A DNA stretch of 21,246 bases, taken from a virus. The notes under the pieces are model-generated. The model was given only the letters and a program-made list of their open reading frames with translations. It was not told the DNA's origin and did no database searches. The translations under genes and the position numbers were made by a program. The stretch is from IMG/VR virus record IMGVR_UViG_3300017770_000216, positions 1 through 21,246 of that record; one strand, 5' to 3'. Shown here in pieces: positions 4,779-16,505 of this stretch. The first letter of the stretch is position 1, and the number at the start of each line of letters is the position of its first letter.

Positions 4779-4931
4779 CTAGGGTTTTCTGAACTGTTGC
4801 TCTAAGAGAATCCTAAGCAGACTCTCTTTTAGTAACATTAATGCTTGTTGTTCGTAAGAATCACCACCAGGCCATTTATCCAAATAAAAACAGACGGATT
4901 TGTACATCAGTACGAGTCCGTCTTTTGACAT
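4779..4931 (-). CDS. small WPGGD-motif protein
   Basis: This 50-residue protein starts at the ATG at 4931, 25 bases after the gp53 stop, and ends at TAG 4779-4781. The sequence includes LVLMYKSVCFYLDKWPGGD and then YEQQALMLLKESLLRILLEQQF. It resembles small marine cyanobacterial and phage proteins with an ACxYLExWPGGDPxEQ core, predicted as two helices around a WPGGD turn. The frame is open much further upstream, but that part is antisense or out-of-frame reading of the gp53 repeat. No strong ribosome site is visible. A terminator-like hairpin overlaps codons 3-13 (see 4885-4923). Function unknown. Confidence 0.6.
   Translation of the reverse strand: MSKDGLVLMYKSVCFYLDKWPGGDSYEQQALMLLKESLLRILLEQQFRKP
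4885..4923 (-). terminator. terminator-like hairpin after gp53, inside the start of the small gene
   Basis: On the minus strand AGACGGA...TCCGTCT (arms at 4917-4923 and 4892-4898) pair over seven bases. An inner GTAC/GTAC pair with a four-base loop extends the stem, and GTTTTTATTT follows. This looks like an intrinsic terminator about 34 bases after the gp53 stop, but the stem lies within the first codons of the 50-residue gene. It may end most gp53 transcripts or attenuate the small gene. Confidence 0.5.
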
Positions 4932-7272: not shown

Positions 7273-8046
7273 ATGGCAATATTTCGTCCAGAATATGCAA
7301 GATATAATTCTTTTCAAGAGTTCTTATCATTTGCTAAAGACAAGGATAATAGTCCTTCTTTTAGTAATCTATTCTCTGTTTCTATGGCAACTCCTGCCAT
7401 ATTAAGGAGAGGTGCTGGAACAGTTGATAATGGAAACTTAGAAATTAAGGATGATCTTGCTTTACTGTTAGATTATTATGCAGATTCTGTTCAACTTCCT
7501 AGTAAGCAAATAACTACAGGGCAAGTTGGTAATGTTGGATCTAGTTATAAGTATGCCACGAACACAGCATACAGTCAGATGCAGATTGTATTCAGACTTC
7601 CTAGATCTCAACAGTCTAGAAATTTATTTGAAAGATGGACCCAGTTGATGGCTAGTGATTCTGATCAATACACTAGATTTTATAATGAATATTGTTGTCC
7701 CGAATTATTGATATACAAGTGGGAAAGAGGTGGCGGAGATTATGTATATACCGATCCAAAAATGATTCGTGCTTTGAGAGAAGCTGGAAATGACTTCTTA
7801 TTGGCAAGGAAATATGAATTGACTGCATGTTACAGAATGGTTAATGTATTCCCATATAATATTGGGTCGGTTCGTCTTGATAACTCCACAGCAAAGACAT
7901 TAACAATGACTGTAGGGTTTTATTATGAAAGATATAGATTCTATCCTAGAAATAAATTTGATCTGAATCTGACTAATCGTGCAAGATCAACATCTATTGC
8001 AGTTGATAATGCATACATTGCTGGGGAAACTGATTCTATCAGATAA
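7273..8046 (+). CDS. gp54/gp19-fold baseplate tube protein
   Basis: This 257-residue protein shows features of the tail-tube superfamily of T4 gp19 and gp54. There is a LPSKQITTGQVGNVGSSYKY segment near residue 75. FRLPRSQQSRNLFERWTQLM is followed by a Tyr-rich YTRFYNEYC and ELLIYKW. Near the C-terminus comes YRMVNVFPYNIGSVRLDN, then LTMTVGFYYERYRFY. Since gp48 and gp26 are close by, the tail-tube initiator gp54 is the best guess. A gp19-like tube paralog is the alternative; the main gp19 usually lies beside gp18, which is not in this window. AAGG at 7262-7265 is seven bases before the ATG. It follows gp4 by two bases. Confidence 0.65.
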   Translation: MAIFRPEYARYNSFQEFLSFAKDKDNSPSFSNLFSVSMATPAILRRGAGTVDNGNLEIKDDLALLLDYYADSVQLPSKQITTGQVGNVGSSYKYATNTAYSQMQIVFRLPRSQQSRNLFERWTQLMASDSDQYTRFYNEYCCPELLIYKWERGGGDYVYTDPKMIRALREAGNDFLLARKYELTACYRMVNVFPYNIGSVRLDNSTAKTLTMTVGFYYERYRFYPRNKFDLNLTNRARSTSIAVDNAYIAGETDSIR

Positions 8047-8077: not shown

Positions 8078-8785
8078 ATGGCATTACCTAAATTAAATGT
8101 ACCTAGGTACAAATTGAAATTGCCTTCTGATGGTAAAACCGTCAATTACAGACCATTTCTTGTAAAAGAAGAAAAACTACTTCTACTTGCTACAGAAACG
8201 GGTGAGCAAACTGATGTTATAGAAGCAATCAAAACAATCATTAAAGACTGTACTGATCTTCAAAATGTAGAATCCCTAGCAACATTTGATATTGAATATT
8301 TGTTTTTGCAGATTCGCACAAAGTCTGTAGGTGAATCTGTAGATACTCTGGTCATTTGTCCAGATGATGGGGAAACTGAAGTGAAATTATCAATTCCACT
8401 TGATGAAATTAAGGTCGAAAAGACAAGAGGTCATAAGACAGAAATTAAACTGTCTGATGAAATTGTTCTTACCATGAGATATCCTCGTCTTGATACGTTT
8501 GTCAAATCAAATTTTGGCGATGGTATGGGTGTTGATCAAGTGTTTGAGATGGCAGCAGATTGTGCTTCAACTATTGCTGATACTCAACAAGTTTATGATT
8601 GTGCGGATAGCACCAAAGAAGAAATGTTGGAATTTTTAGATCAGTTAAGTTCTAAACAGTTTCAACTGGTTCAAAGTTTCTTTGAGACTATGCCCAAACT
8701 GAAATATACTGCCTCTGTTACTAATCCTAATACTGGGGTTGAATCTGAAGTTGTACTTGAGGGATTGGCGAGTTTTTTCGCGTAG
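8078..8785 (+). CDS. 26: gp26-like baseplate hub assembly protein (zero-frame product)
   Basis: This 235-residue protein matches gp26 of T4-like cyanophages: LPKLNVPRYKLKLPSDGKTV, YRPFLVKEEKLLLLA, FDIEYLFLQIRTKSVGE and the C-terminal FLDQLSSKQFQLVQSFFETM with MPKLKYT. In T4 gp26 takes part in hub assembly. The last codons are GCG AGT TTT TTC GCG TAG; T TTT TTC at 8773-8779 is a canonical -1 slippery heptamer, and the -1 frame continues open for another 64 codons. Zero-frame reading ends after Ala235. A -1 shift would give a fusion of about 298 residues. This resembles the G/GT tail assembly chaperones of other phages, which also precede the tape measure gene. Confidence 0.85.
   Translation: MALPKLNVPRYKLKLPSDGKTVNYRPFLVKEEKLLLLATETGEQTDVIEAIKTIIKDCTDLQNVESLATFDIEYLFLQIRTKSVGESVDTLVICPDDGETEVKLSIPLDEIKVEKTRGHKTEIKLSDEIVLTMRYPRLDTFVKSNFGDGMGVDQVFEMAADCASTIADTQQVYDCADSTKEEMLEFLDQLSSKQFQLVQSFFETMPKLKYTASVTNPNTGVESEVVLEGLASFFA
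8773..8779 (+). promoter_or_regulatory. -1 ribosomal frameshift site T TTT TTC
   Basis: The heptamer is in the X XXY YYZ register of the gp26 frame, two codons before its stop. A -1 slip continues as CGC GTA GCA into the gp51-like frame (to 8973), which has no ATG, GTG or TTG between its upstream stop (8758-8760) and 8836. No convincing downstream pseudoknot was found by eye. Confidence 0.65.
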
Positions 8786-8973
8786 CACTCCTTCACAACA
8801 ATCTTCGTTCTTACTATGAAGGTAACTTTGCCCTAATGCATCACCATAAATGGAATATCGAGCATATCGATAATCTGATGCCTTGGGAAAAAGAGATTTA
8901 CGTCAATCTATTAATAACATTCCTAAAAGAAGAAGAACGTCGCATGAAGGAGAAGCAAGCAGCAGGTGGCTAA
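8779..8973 (+). CDS. 51: gp51-like / tail chaperone C-terminal frame, expressed by -1 frameshift
   Basis: The 64 residues read from 8779 begin RVALLHNNLRSYYEGNFALM and continue HHHKWNIEHIDNLMPWEKEI, then YVNLLITFLKEEERRMKEKQ. The pattern of a short His/aromatic helix, an x-MPWE turn and a charged terminal helix fits gp51 of cyanophages and the T part of GT tail assembly chaperones. The frame opens at 8761 without a usable start codon. The first ATG, at 8836, would remove LRSYYEGNFAL and has only a distant AAGG. Translation through the gp26 frameshift is the simplest explanation; independent initiation at 8836 (45 residues) is the alternative. The TAA overlaps the start of the next gene by eight bases. 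Confidence 0.7.
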   Translation, partial: RVALLHNNLRSYYEGNFALMHHHKWNIEHIDNLMPWEKEIYVNLLITFLKEEERRMKEKQAAGG

Positions 8974-11551
8974 ACTACAAGCATATAAATTTGTTAATCC
9001 TGGTGGTACAACAAGATCACCAGTAAGTCTTGCTGTAAATAAAAATGTACTAGGAATTAATCGACTAGGATCTACTGTTTCTTCTTTAGGATCAGTTATA
9101 TCTGATATTGAAAAAATCAATATTGCATCAATTAAGAATGATAAGAAACAAGAATTATTAGAAAGAAGAAGAAAGCAGAGGGAACGTGATGAATCTGCAG
9201 AAGAAGCACAAGAACTTACTAAATTAGAAAAGGGTAAGTCAAAAATAAAACCCAATACTAAGCAGAAAAAGGCAGCAGGTGGTAGTCTAGGTTTTATTTC
9301 AAAATTTTTAAATCCAATAGGACAATTTTTATTATCTATTGGTGGTCTGGTTGCGGTAAATACTCTTCTAGACTGGGTATCGGATAAAGAAAACTTCGAT
9401 AAGGTTAAGGAGTTTCTAAGAAAGACTCAATTTGTTTTTGACAAGTTATTTGGATTTTTCAAAGCAGTTGGAGATGCTACCTTTAATACATTTAAGACAT
9501 TATTTGGTAGTGACTCTTCGTTTGGTGACAGGTTAAAAGCACTAGGAACTATACTTCTTGGTATTATAGCCTTAAAAGGTGTCATGAATCCATTTGGATT
9601 GATGACCGACATATTGGGATTGCTTGATCTATTCACTGGAGATGGTGGCGGTCGTAATCCTAATCCTGATCCAAACGCAGATAAGAGTAAGAGTAAGAAT
9701 AAACCTGATAATAAAACTAAACCAAAGAGTGCAACTGATCCCGAACGTACTAGGAACATATCAAGACCTAGTGCTTCTTCAACACCTGTAAAACCTCAGA
9801 CTAAATTTACTGGTATTGAAGATACAGATTTAAGATCTCCCCAAAGACGTTTAGCAGATAAAATTTCTAAAAAGCATGGAGCAGGTGCTAGAAGTGCTTT
9901 CGATCAAAGATATAATGATCTAATTAGTAGTGGGTCAAGTCCTGCTCAGGCAACAAGACGTGCAAATGCAGATGTTCTTAAAAGAATAGACAAGAAACAA
10001 ATCACATCTAGACCTGCACTAGGGAATCTTTCTGCTCGTTCTAATAGAATGACAGCAACAATACTTGGTGCTACTAGTGACGATGCAGCAAAATTAGGAA
10101 CCTCTAAGATTTTCAAGAAGGGAGTTGATAAAGCAACTCAACGTTTTCTACTTAAAATTATTGGGATGGGTGGTGTCAAGGCACTCAAGAAGATTCTGAA
10201 TAGAATTCCTATTATTGGTCCTCTAATCACATTTGCACTGAACTGGGCATCAGGAGAGTCTATTGCTGCTTCTGCTGCTATGGCAGTCGGTGCAGGTCTT
10301 GGAGAGTTGTTAGGTGGATGGTTAGGTGGTGCTGCTGGTCTTGCCCTCTCTGGGTTCTCTGGCGGTCTCTTAGCGCCAGTTGCTGTTCCGATAGGTGGAT
10401 TTATTGGTGCAATGCTTGGTGGTATTGCAGGTGAAGCACTCGGTGGATGGTTATTTAAGACTATCACAGGAGAGGGTGGTGGTAGCGGCGGTATGGGTGC
10501 CGTGGGTAGTACTATTGCAGAAGGGTTAAAGCAGTTATTAACAAAAGAGTTTTGGGATAAGATTGGTACTGGTATTGCTGGCGTATGGTCTAATATTGTT
10601 GCTGCCGCAGGAAAACTATGGAACATGTTATCTGGAATGGCAGAGTTCTTAAATATTCCTTCATTTTTTGATACTTTGTGGAAAAAAATGGGTAAAATGG
10701 CGGGGACATTATATGATGTCTTCAGCATTTTAATGAATCCTCTAAGAATTTTAGAGTTACGAAAAGTTCCAGGAATGCTGTTATCCTTTGCAAAGGATTT
10801 TGGTGAATTCTTCATTATGCCTGGTCCCATTGGATTCATTTGGAAGCATGGGGTCGAACCATTCTTTAGCAAACTAGGTGATCTTTGGAATAACAGAGAT
10901 AAGTTATGGGATTTCATGATGAAACCTGGAACATTCCAGGATACATTTAATACTGGTAAGTACGATCCAAAGAAAACCTCACCAACAGAAATTAAAAAGG
11001 CTGAGGAAACTCAGAAGGGAATGGCGCATATGCGTGGTGGTCCAGTTCTGAACTTTGCGTTTGGTGGTCCCATTCAACAGTTAGCAAGTGGTGGTCCCAT
11101 TCAACAATTGGCAAGTGGTGGTGTTGTTAATGACATTGGGCAAAGTTTCGTACAACCTGAGTCTCCTTCCATCGGAGCAGATACTGGTGATATATCATTC
11201 AAATTTATGAATGTAAGTCCCAATCTAAATGAAACTATTGTTAAGAGTGTTCGGAATGTTATAACTGTCAATCCTATCAGTAACGTGACTAATGTCAATA
11301 ATACTTTTAGGACTACTAAAAATAATCGTGCGACTCCACCCAAAATGGTTAGTCCTGTAAATTCTAGTAGAAATATGCTATCTGCAACAGATGGATTTTC
11401 TGCACAATATGCCATGGATCAAGGTGCTGAATTTATTCCTATTCCAATTGTCATTGAGAGAGTTGTACCCATCCCTCAAGCAGTGCCTATAAATACTGGT
11501 AAGGAAACAGTGCAAATTACACAAAGTAGCCTTTCTCAAAGGATGAAGTAA
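8966..11551 (+). CDS. tape-measure-like baseplate/tail protein A
   Basis: This 861-residue protein starts at a GTG overlapping the gp51-like frame, with AAGGAG 13 bases upstream. In order it shows an N-terminal KFV...LG.NRLGSTVSSL segment (1-50), a charged coiled coil (about 58-92), a hydrophobic stretch (110-137) and LDWVSDKENFDKVKEFL (135-151). A Lys/Pro/Asn-rich linker (228-280) follows, then a long Gly/Ala hydrophobic region (about 396-500, LGELLGGWLGGAAGLALSG). There are two exact GGPIQQLAS repeats (700-718), a beta-like C-terminal part and a Gln/Ser-rich end. Size, hydrophobic segments and position after the gp26/gp51 pair fit a tape measure role (T4 gp29 analog). No catalytic domain was recognised. 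Residues 1-225 are paralogous to the next protein. Confidence 0.7.
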   Translation: MAKLQAYKFVNPGGTTRSPVSLAVNKNVLGINRLGSTVSSLGSVISDIEKINIASIKNDKKQELLERRRKQRERDESAEEAQELTKLEKGKSKIKPNTKQKKAAGGSLGFISKFLNPIGQFLLSIGGLVAVNTLLDWVSDKENFDKVKEFLRKTQFVFDKLFGFFKAVGDATFNTFKTLFGSDSSFGDRLKALGTILLGIIALKGVMNPFGLMTDILGLLDLFTGDGGGRNPNPDPNADKSKSKNKPDNKTKPKSATDPERTRNISRPSASSTPVKPQTKFTGIEDTDLRSPQRRLADKISKKHGAGARSAFDQRYNDLISSGSSPAQATRRANADVLKRIDKKQITSRPALGNLSARSNRMTATILGATSDDAAKLGTSKIFKKGVDKATQRFLLKIIGMGGVKALKKILNRIPIIGPLITFALNWASGESIAASAAMAVGAGLGELLGGWLGGAAGLALSGFSGGLLAPVAVPIGGFIGAMLGGIAGEALGGWLFKTITGEGGGSGGMGAVGSTIAEGLKQLLTKEFWDKIGTGIAGVWSNIVAAAGKLWNMLSGMAEFLNIPSFFDTLWKKMGKMAGTLYDVFSILMNPLRILELRKVPGMLLSFAKDFGEFFIMPGPIGFIWKHGVEPFFSKLGDLWNNRDKLWDFMMKPGTFQDTFNTGKYDPKKTSPTEIKKAEETQKGMAHMRGGPVLNFAFGGPIQQLASGGPIQQLASGGVVNDIGQSFVQPESPSIGADTGDISFKFMNVSPNLNETIVKSVRNVITVNPISNVTNVNNTFRTTKNNRATPPKMVSPVNSSRNMLSATDGFSAQYAMDQGAEFIPIPIVIERVVPIPQAVPINTGKETVQITQSSLSQRMK
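11063..11116 (+). repeat. 27-base tandem repeat coding GGPIQQLAS
   Basis: Two adjacent 27-base units (11063-11089 and 11090-11116) differ only at two silent positions (CAGTTA versus CAATTG) and encode GGPIQQLAS twice. A partial third GGTGGT follows. It looks like a recent in-frame duplication in a linker of the tape-measure-like protein. Confidence 0.85.
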
Positions 11552-11555
11552 TTAA

Positions 11556-14333
11556 ATGGCAACTACAGTACAAAAAGGGGCAAAAATAAATTTTTACAAA
11601 TTTGTTGGTGTTGGGACTGTTTCTACAGACTCTCCTGACAGAGATGTTGTAGAATCTATTAATAAAACAACACTTGCCCTGAATAACCTAGGGAGTACTG
11701 TAAATTCCATTTCTTCTAGTATAATTGATTTAAAAAAATCACAACTAAAAATATTAGAAGCAGAAAAGAAAAATAATACTAAATTTGAACCAAAATATAC
11801 AAAAAAAGAAAAGAAAACCTTTACATCATTTTTATCGAAACTTAAGATAGGTAAAATTCCTAACTTCTTTGAAGCAATGTTGGGATTGCTAGGAAATTTA
11901 TTTAAATTATTTGTTGTTGGACCTGCTCTTGAGTGGATTAGTAAAAAAGAAAATCAAAAAAAGGTAAAGAAAGTACTAGAAGTAATAAGTAATGTACTAA
12001 AATTTGTTAAAGATTGGGCAGTATTTGGTGTCACCAATACTATAGAAGGATTATACACATTATTATCAGACGAATCTACTTTTGGTGAAAAGTTTGGTGG
12101 ATTTATTCGCGCAACTGTAGGAATAGGTTCATTATTACTTGGGATACGTTGGCTAACTAATCCTCTAAAAATCATTTCAGATTTTGGAAGTGTCCTAAAA
12201 TTATTTTTTAATAGTTTAAATAAGACTAGAAGATCACTCATGGCTCGTAAGGGTCTTGCGAGATTTGGGGGGAGAGGAGTTCTTCCTATGATAGGCAAGG
12301 TTGTCCTTCCTGCTACTGCTCTCTGGTTACTTTCTGAGGGTTTAGCAACCCGTCCTGCTGCAGATGGCACTCTGGATGCCCAAAAAGATGCACAGGGGAG
12401 ATTGCCAGAAGATCCAGGATTTGACAAAACAACTAAAGGACAATACAAACCACCCGAAAAAGCACAAGGTGGAATATTACCACAAGCAGCATCAGGAGGA
12501 TGGATTAATGGACCACAATCAGGATATCCCGTATCATTGGATGGAGGGAGATCAACCTCGTTTATCGGACACGGATCCGAATATGTTGCTAGAAAGTCTA
12601 ATGGGGGAGCTTTCGTCGTTCCTTTTAATACTCCTGCAACAAAAACACAACCAAATCTAACCTCTAGGAGGATGGGTGAGGCAAAAAGTCAAGGATTTAG
12701 TCTTCCTGGATTTTCTAGCGGTGGTAATACTGCAAGATCTGGTGCTCCTAGTATAAAATTACCAGAACTACCAGAATTTTCAAGAGGTGGTAACTTAGAC
12801 AAGCAAATCTATTTGCATTGGACTGCTACTGATTATAATTATAAAAAAGGACCTTATAATGCAGTAATTCAAGGTGATGGAAAAGTATATAATGATAGAC
12901 CTTCTGACCAGGTTGGAGGGGAGCATACCTGGAGACGTAATAGCAAGGGTGTAGGAATTAGCATGGCAGCAATGTCAGGTTATAACTGGGATTCCTATGG
13001 TCCAAAACCCATCCAGATTGAAAATATGTCAAAGGAAGCAGCAAATGTTGCTAAAAAATGGGGATGGAAACCTAGTGATATTAATATCAAGAGAGTGATG
13101 AATCACGCTGAAGCAGCGTCAAACAAAGATGGTAAGAGTCCAACTCCTAACTATGGTCCTACTTGGTGGAATGGTACGGGTGAAAGATCCGACTTACATA
13201 AGTTGAAGAAAAGTGATAAGGATGGCACAGGTGGTGATAAACTTCGTGCAAAAATTAGAAAATATATGGGTGGGGAGGACACAATAGCTCCTACTGCTGG
13301 ATTAAAACCAGGCGATCACGGTCCAGCGACAACTGGTGGCAGTGCCAAGATTGCTAGTGGTGATTATGCATTACTCCAAAAACTTGTTCTTGCTGAAGCT
13401 GGAGGAGAAGGTCATTTAGGAATGGCATTAGTTGCACGATCTGTTTTGAACAGAGCAGGATTAGTCCAAAAAGGCATTGTAGGACCTGGGATCTTCATGG
13501 CAGAAAGTGGAAGTGTTAAAGATATTATCATGGCAGACAATGGCGGACAATACACTCCAGCAAAACCAGGCGGATCTCTATTCAAAAATAGAAGTGATGC
13601 TGATATGTTGAGAGCACAGAAAGCAATTGAAACTGCTAGGAATCCGACAGGTCTTAGAGGATATCTTGAATCTAAAAATGTTCCAGCAGAGCAAATTAAT
13701 TATCTTATGGGTTCTACTGGATTTAGAAATTATGATGCTGCTTTCACAGATCCATCTCAACAGGTCAATGAGGTTAAGTTTGGGAATCATACATTCAATA
13801 CTGCAAGTAATCCAAATATCCTCACTCCTGTAAGTGAAATTACTGGTCATGGTGGAACTGGTGGAGGTCATAGTAGTTCTCCTCTTGAAAGCACGCCTGA
13901 ATCTGGTGGATATAATTATGATATCGGAACAAATGGAGCAGTATTTACGCCATCCTCTGCAGATAGTATGACTACTAGGTTGGGTGTTCCTTCTCCTAAA
14001 AGCAACTTCCAACCTGGTGTAGGTAGTAACATAACCTCTGGAAAAGATCAGTTTAAGTTACAAAGACATACACAAGAAGTAACTACTGCTCGTCAGCAAA
14101 CCACTCAAATGCAGAAAGATTTAATTTCTGCAGTATTGACACAAGTTGCTGGATCTAATCAATCTAATAATGTAGCAATCCAGAAGGCAAATAAAATGAT
14201 TCAAGAAATAATGAGTTCCGCTGGATCAAGCACACCAACTCCAGTAACAACTGGTAGTAGTAAATCTGATGATGGTAGTACTGCATCATTACTAAATTCT
14301 TTCAATAACCCCCTTAGAGGTGCGTTCAAATGA
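11556..14333 (+). CDS. tape-measure-like protein B with amidase and SleB-like hydrolase domains
   Basis: This 925-residue protein repeats the N-terminal architecture of its neighbour (1-215: ALNNLGSTVNSISSSIIDL, hydrophobic 103-127, LEWISKKENQKKVKKVL). A Gly-rich linker includes SGYPVSLDGGRSTSFIGHG (322-340). Residues 415-550 look like an amidase_2/PGRP N-acetylmuramoyl-L-alanine amidase: IYLHWTATDY with H421, GGEHTWRRNSKGVGISM with H457, VMNHAEAA with H517, and D546 as a possible third zinc ligand. Residues 600-755 look like a SleB-type cell-wall hydrolase: LVLAEAGGEGHLGMALVARS then VLNR, with E614 and E618. The C-terminus has a Gln-rich helix (835-890). Peptidoglycan cutting during tail penetration is inferred. 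It is ATGA-coupled to the gp27-like gene. Confidence 0.78.
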   Translation: MATTVQKGAKINFYKFVGVGTVSTDSPDRDVVESINKTTLALNNLGSTVNSISSSIIDLKKSQLKILEAEKKNNTKFEPKYTKKEKKTFTSFLSKLKIGKIPNFFEAMLGLLGNLFKLFVVGPALEWISKKENQKKVKKVLEVISNVLKFVKDWAVFGVTNTIEGLYTLLSDESTFGEKFGGFIRATVGIGSLLLGIRWLTNPLKIISDFGSVLKLFFNSLNKTRRSLMARKGLARFGGRGVLPMIGKVVLPATALWLLSEGLATRPAADGTLDAQKDAQGRLPEDPGFDKTTKGQYKPPEKAQGGILPQAASGGWINGPQSGYPVSLDGGRSTSFIGHGSEYVARKSNGGAFVVPFNTPATKTQPNLTSRRMGEAKSQGFSLPGFSSGGNTARSGAPSIKLPELPEFSRGGNLDKQIYLHWTATDYNYKKGPYNAVIQGDGKVYNDRPSDQVGGEHTWRRNSKGVGISMAAMSGYNWDSYGPKPIQIENMSKEAANVAKKWGWKPSDINIKRVMNHAEAASNKDGKSPTPNYGPTWWNGTGERSDLHKLKKSDKDGTGGDKLRAKIRKYMGGEDTIAPTAGLKPGDHGPATTGGSAKIASGDYALLQKLVLAEAGGEGHLGMALVARSVLNRAGLVQKGIVGPGIFMAESGSVKDIIMADNGGQYTPAKPGGSLFKNRSDADMLRAQKAIETARNPTGLRGYLESKNVPAEQINYLMGSTGFRNYDAAFTDPSQQVNEVKFGNHTFNTASNPNILTPVSEITGHGGTGGGHSSSPLESTPESGGYNYDIGTNGAVFTPSSADSMTTRLGVPSPKSNFQPGVGSNITSGKDQFKLQRHTQEVTTARQQTTQMQKDLISAVLTQVAGSNQSNNVAIQKANKMIQEIMSSAGSSTPTPVTTGSSKSDDGSTASLLNSFNNPLRGAFK

Positions 14334-15998: not shown

Positions 15999-16434
15999 TG
16001 ATTATCTATTAGGACATTGGTCAAATAAATTTCAAGCACAATCATGTCCCCATCAATATTCTACAGTAGAAATTGAGTGGAAAAAAATAGAAGGTGGATA
16101 TCACTCTAAAAACTATTATCGAGAAGATGGTCCTAATAAACCATATCGAGAACGTTATCATAAACTTGTAGTAAAATCTGAAACTAAAGTTCAATTTGAA
16201 AATTATGATCTAGACTGGACAAAATCCGAAAATTGTGATATGATATTTGTATTCGATGGCAATGCATGGCATGGACAATTAATCGGTGACAAATGCACTG
16301 GTGTTCGAGGATACCGAGTTGTTTCTGAAATTCATTTGTATGGAGATAAACTCCATAGTATGGATCAGGGATACAATGCTGGAGGAGAAATGATGTGGGG
16401 TAGTGAATTGCTCTACAAATTTACTCGTATCTAG
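15988..16434 (+). CDS. cpeT: CpeT-like phycobiliprotein lyase
   Basis: This 148-residue protein matches the CpcT/CpeT lyase family, which attaches bilins to phycobiliprotein cysteines. Family features visible are LLGHWSNKFQAQ at the start (7-18), PYRERYHKL (52-60), ENYDL (71-75), ENCDMIFVFDGNAWHGQLIG (81-100), C103, and the terminal DQGYNAGGEMMWGSELLYKF (126-145), where the MDxG and WGS patterns are typical. Cyanophage CpeT proteins bind phycoerythrobilin; whether this one transfers it is unknown. The start lies inside the CP12 reading frame (11-base overlap). The last base of its TAG stop is the first base of the tRNA. Confidence 0.83.
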   Translation: MKIDDYLLGHWSNKFQAQSCPHQYSTVEIEWKKIEGGYHSKNYYREDGPNKPYRERYHKLVVKSETKVQFENYDLDWTKSENCDMIFVFDGNAWHGQLIGDKCTGVRGYRVVSEIHLYGDKLHSMDQGYNAGGEMMWGSELLYKFTRI

Positions 16435-16505
16435 GGCGAATAACTCAGCGGTAGAGTGCCTCCTTTACACGGAGATTGTCGGGGGTTCGATCCCCTCTTC
16501 GCCCA
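16434..16505 (+). tRNA. tRNA-Val (anticodon UAC)
   Basis: A complete 72-base cloverleaf is present. The acceptor stem GGGCGAA/TTCGCCC is perfect, the D stem is ACTC/GAGT, and the anticodon loop TTTACAC has TAC at 16466-16468. The anticodon stem is CCTCC/GGAGA with one C-A mismatch at its outer pair. The T arm is GGGGG-TTCGATC-CCCTC. The discriminator is A (16505) and CCA is not encoded. It overlaps the cpeT stop by one base and sits 16 bases before the next gene. It decodes GUA-type Val codons. Confidence 0.93.

Follow-up and report, generated by a model that had tools for sequence, protein, structure and literature searches.

The gp26 gene of the window (the whole 21,246-nt stretch of viral DNA that was analysed) most probably specifies two tail assembly chaperones comparable to G and GT of lambda: gp26 as the short form and, by a -1 frameshift, a gp26-gp51 fusion as the long form. 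We put the probability of this reading at about 93%. It is based on a conserved slippery heptamer, on selection acting on the -1 frame protein, on the colinearity of the joined product with T4 gp51 and on a predicted chaperone-like fold; together with the gene order, these support the preliminary description, in which gp26/gp51 had been proposed as a T4-type version of G/GT made by a -1 slip. The phage is a T4-like marine cyanophage of the ACG-2014a type, and the joined protein of ACG-2014a is 99% identical to that of the window.

Table. Features of the gp26-gp51 region (positions in the window)
Feature	Position	Strand	Evidence or remark
Upstream neighbour, tail tube family protein	7273..8046	+	phrog_45 E=3e-61
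gp26, putative short tail assembly chaperone (TAC-N, lambda G-like)	8078..8785	+	235 aa; PF12322, phrog_150, predicted fold
Shine-Dalgarno-like GAGGGA, 8 nt upstream of the heptamer, candidate stimulator	8755..8764	+	anti-Shine-Dalgarno pairing; GAG usage
Slippery heptamer T TTT TTC in the gp26 register	8773..8779	+	sequence; invariant in 80/80, including synonymous third positions
-1 frame extension, gp51-like C-terminal domain (TAC-C)	8779..8973	+	64 codons + stop; phrog_634 E=6e-31; pN/pS 0.21; T4-type gp51 residues 200-245
gp26 stop TAG, one codon (GCG) past the heptamer	8783..8785	+	stop position constant in 80/80
First ATG of the -1 frame, within the conserved domain	8836..8838	+	sequence
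Downstream neighbour in tape measure position	8966..11551	+	GTG start overlaps gp51 stop by 8 bases; role inferred from position

In the proposed mechanism, most ribosomes would end at the TAG and release gp26, and a minority would shift into the -1 frame at T TTT TTC to make gp26-gp51 (298 aa); no other frame encodes the C-terminal domain of this long form. On the model of lambda G/GT, the abundant short form would cover the tape measure protein, and a small number of long forms would bring in the tail tube subunits. The slippage, its frequency and these binding roles are inferred.

The 3' end of gp26 reads AGT TTT TTC GCG TAG, in which T TTT TTC fits the X XXY YYZ register for -1 slippage. 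The preliminary description was right about the heptamer and its register, and was corrected on the distance to the stop, which it had given as two codons (there is one). For comparison with relatives, a viral contig search yielded 80 related loci; one near-identical locus was set aside and the window was added, giving a set of 79 related loci and the window (80 sequences). In all 80, T TTT TTC was present with a single codon between it and the stop. The first Phe codon was always TTT and the second always TTC, and the preceding codon (AGT, TCT, GCT, GAT or AAT) ended in T throughout; conserved codons adjoining the heptamer differed at their third positions. A naive joint probability of this invariance was about 1e-72, a figure that ignores relatedness and is indicative only. 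The stop itself was TAG in 71/80 sequences, perhaps because the -1 frame reads TAG within a conserved hydrophobic-Ala/Gly/Ser pair.

Within the genes of the whole window, 25 in-register slippery heptamers were counted in 6310 codons. After the one at the end of gp26 the -1 frame stayed open for 66 codons, versus 2-28 codons after the other 24. Conservation among relatives is a stronger test of the heptamer than this chance count. A second in-register heptamer (A AAT TTT at 8509) was rejected: a stop comes after 8 codons.

Directly after a TGA at 8758-8760, the -1 frame opens at 8761 and continues to its stop at 8971-8973; the post-shift product would be 64 residues long (RVALLHNNLRSYYEG...KEKQAAGG). 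Neither ATG nor GTG nor TTG occurs in this frame upstream of 8836, the sole near-start codon being an ATT at 8764, so that the earlier account of a 64-codon frame lacking these starts before 8836 is borne out by the sequence. Selection on this segment was estimated from the 16 sequences, window included, that have no start codon before +50. From the slip site to +50, pN/pS was 0.21 in the -1 frame versus 1.9 and 1.6 in the two remaining frames. By this sequence measure, the segment upstream of 8836 behaves as protein-coding in the -1 frame, under purifying selection. Its protein-like character had been claimed before, and the confinement of purifying selection to one frame confirms it; the compared cyanophage sequences contained both the conserved heptamer and the conserved residues upstream of the first ATG that had been named as supporting evidence. 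Because the segment is conserved as protein in relatives that lack a start, no common start codon explains it.

Homology to the T4 gp26/gp51 family was indicated by profile matches of gp26 (PF12322, E=4e-74; phrog_150, E=3e-88), by the phrog_634 match of the -1 domain and by hhalign profile comparison. In the latter, gp26 aligned to residues 5-198 of T4-type gp51 and the -1 domain to residues 200-245, and the two alignments met at the position of the slip site. In Acinetobacter and Klebsiella gp51, single tblastn alignments of the joined protein ran across the junction. On these alignments, the predicted joined product is colinear with T4 gp51, in which a gp26-like domain precedes the same C-terminal domain. 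The window's gp26 is homologous to T4 gp26, and its gp26 extended by the -1 domain is homologous to T4 gp51; T4 encodes the two proteins in separate genes, 26 and 51, on opposite strands instead of in one frameshifted gene. Within a small test set, T4 gp26 and gp51 also matched each other, with E=2e-5. Cyanophage gp51 has been described as being without about 200 N-terminal residues relative to the gp51 of other T4-like phages (Sullivan et al. 2010, PMC3037559). The frameshift would supply these residues: cyanophage gp51 would have looked short because its N-terminal part lies in gp26. With the chaperone pair made by frameshifting, or in T4 by two related genes, the evolutionary switch between the two becomes testable.

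This arrangement, with T TTT TTC or T TTT TTT as the heptamer, was also found in Pseudomonas pf16, Caulobacter Cr30, Vibrio Va3, Aeromonas Ah1, Stenotrophomonas Moby, Delftia PhiW-14, Rhizobium IC12, Sinorhizobium phiM7, Acinetobacter SH-Ab 15599, P-HM1 and S-CRM01; the heptamer of phiM9 is T TTT TTG. Three further loci (L090, L091 and L098; two Ackermannviridae and Vibrio K452) keep the C-terminal domain in the -1 frame and lack a canonical heptamer, with weaker motifs (ATT TTC or CTT TTT) before the end. Viral contig searches with the Cr30 and Va3 queries gave only four extra loci, at least two of which were the query phages themselves.

Four other explanations of the junction were weighed against the frameshift. 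The heptamer could be a chance product of a conserved Phe-Phe pair in an AT-rich genome, and TTT is indeed the commoner Phe codon elsewhere in gp26 (TTT 650, TTC 252). This is scarcely credible: the second Phe is TTC in 80/80 sequences even though TTC is the rarer codon (252/902), the prior codon always ends in T, and the idea is contradicted by the third-position counts. RNA polymerase could instead slip on the run of six T (8773-8778), placing the frame change in the mRNA and not on the ribosome. A run of only six T is on the short side for transcriptional slippage, neither the seventh base (C) nor the codon register varies in the 80 sequences, and an element pairing with the anti-Shine-Dalgarno sequence lies at a set distance upstream, as expected of ribosomal slippage; we regard polymerase slippage as highly improbable. 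An equally remote prospect is an independent small gp51, translated from the ATG at 8836 or 8878 by reinitiation after gp26. The public annotation of ACG-2014a, with a 31-aa gp51, and the ATG or GTG that directly follows the gp26 stop in many relatives speak for such a protein. In 16 relatives, nevertheless, conserved -1 protein precedes any start; sequences that do have an ATG keep the heptamer unchanged as well, and T4 gp51 is a full-length fusion. For the lineage of the window, an independent start was rejected on the conservation of the -1 frame as protein upstream of 8836.

The start codons of the relatives leave room for a mixed arrangement, in which the frameshift fusion and a free C-terminal domain would both be made in those lineages whose stop has an ATG close by. 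Of the 79 relatives, 46 have an ATG or GTG no more than 8 nt from the stop, and every one of these keeps the heptamer; a separate gp51 start is possible in such lineages. Among these 79 sequences, no cyanophage homologue with a start codon lacked the heptamer, the combination that the preliminary description had named as contrary evidence. The lineage of the window has no start before 8836, however, and the Met that relatives carry near the stop may be a mere permitted residue where other phages carry Leu. The GAGGGA element was rejected as the Shine-Dalgarno site of the relatives' ATG at +5, the spacing of about 23 nt being too long. On balance we consider the use of both routes unlikely. Counted against the frameshift reading as a whole are the 46 relatives with a possible separate start, the lack of a downstream stem in the lineage of the window, the weak plain Foldseek result, a Z score of 7.5 that is not decisive and a downstream gene that matched no tape-measure family.

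As to elements that could stimulate the frameshift, predicted anti-Shine-Dalgarno pairing across the 80 sequences was highest 8 nt upstream of the heptamer. GAG was over-used at the Glu codon of this site (56/80 versus 578/1907; p=2e-12, uncorrected for relatedness). The combination of GAGGGA and heptamer resembles the arrangement in E. coli dnaX, with its internal Shine-Dalgarno stimulator, and from sequence GAGGGA is a likely frameshift stimulator in the window's lineage. Downstream of the slip site, the RNA was more structured than synonymous shuffles in most cyanophages (mean z -1.75). A stem of this kind was absent by the same shuffle test in the window (z +0.5) and its nearest relatives, and was rejected as a stimulator there; no consensus RNA fold emerged from the alignment. 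Any contribution from a downstream stem seems confined to lineages other than that of the window. It is conceivable, if doubtful, that a dnaX-like element 8-10 nt upstream of T TTT TTC is the main driver of chaperone frameshifting in cyanophages and that an ATG gained just after the slip site in many lineages may let one gene make three products (short, long and free C-terminal domain). We know of no description of one gene making short, long and free C-terminal chaperone products.

The predicted model of gp26 (pLDDT 87) had its best matches among solved structures in 2ob9 (the HK97 tail assembly chaperone, gp13; Z 7.5), 3fgx (Z 7.5), 3klu (YqbN; Z 6.8) and 5ir0 (a PICI-element protein; Z 5.2), of which 3fgx and 3klu are prophage proteins of the tail assembly chaperone kind. 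The next row was unrelated (Z 5.0) and the remaining rows were at or below 2.4. All these structural matches were limited to residues 1-94 of gp26. HK97 gp13 resembled residues 1-84 (rmsd 4.4 over 83 residues); gp26 differs from it in a further domain of about 150 residues, and a sequence match between the two is absent. A plain Foldseek search of the PDB with the gp26 model gave nothing significant, with 2ob9 near the top, and the gp26 profile had zero matches to the sequences of solved structures. With moderate confidence, the modelled fold of gp26 is chaperone-like, although Z values of 7-8 can come from a common arrangement and are not decisive alone; the fact that a tail assembly chaperone heads the list, with two proteins of its kind next, carries weight. 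T4-type gp51 is predicted to have the same order of elements as gp26, followed by a helical C-terminal domain; its model matched 2ob9 at Z 3.7 only, amid unrelated rows.

The two frames lie between a tail tube gene (phrog_45) and a gene in the tape measure position, the placement of lambda-type chaperone genes. The preliminary description had called the next gene tape-measure-like: its position agrees with this, and a search of the tape-measure families in PHROGs gave no match to it. The equivalent downstream gene in Cr30 is called tail tape measure. AAGGAG lies just upstream of the GTG at 8966, and because this GTG also overlaps the gp51 stop, translation of the downstream gene may be coupled to frameshifted ribosomes.

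Programmed frameshifts in the chaperone gene are known from most tailed phages, and the slippery heptamer of lambda is GGGAAAG, unlike that of the window. Vladimirov and colleagues are said to have noted in 2022 that the frameshift seems to be conserved across several groups of T4-like phages, T4 using the separate genes 26 and 51. A chaperone frameshift had already been proposed for some T4-like phages, and the present case is a well supported and fairly ordinary one. Lambda gpG/gpGT likewise arise by a -1 slip near the 3' end of the short chaperone gene, directly before the tape measure gene, with the long form carrying a C-terminal domain (PMC5009743). At 235 aa gp26 is larger than lambda gpG, and detectable sequence similarity is not expected. 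Pakpunavirus/Vandenendeviridae (phage Adele, PMC12846349) share the poly-T slip site, the conserved -1 frame and the position before the tape measure gene with the window, but these are other phage families with another motif context (GTTTTT). That genes 26 and 51 of T4-like phages encode chaperones is credited to Vladimirov, Gautam and Davidson (2022, Virology 566:9-15), who are cited for separate short and fused-long chaperone genes in some T4-like phages (PMC10885494) and for poly-T slippery sites in TAC-N genes of T4-like phages (PMC12846349); the TAC-N/TAC-NC treated there are of the same gene family (T4 genes 26 and 51) as gp26/gp51 of the window. The selected Shine-Dalgarno-like element upstream is possibly new, as are the differences between lineages in start codons and in RNA structure downstream of the slip site.

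For annotation, gp51 of ACG-2014a was deposited as a 31-aa protein (positions 4801-4896 of locus L101, equal to 8878-8973 of the window) that starts in the middle of the conserved domain; this short gp51 of near-identical phages is a mis-annotation. No joined gp26-gp51 CDS was flagged in the annotated public-record regions examined, and the annotation of two tail genes would be corrected in hundreds of marine phage genomes.

Elsewhere in the window, the gene downstream of gp51 is adjacent to another large gene on the same strand in tape-measure position (11556-14333, +), which carries an Amidase_2 domain; the N-terminal regions of the two are 30% identical over 235 columns (E=9e-13). A tRNA-Val (TAC) was found at 16434-16505 (+), and the ORF from GTG 16456, which begins inside this tRNA, is probably mis-started.
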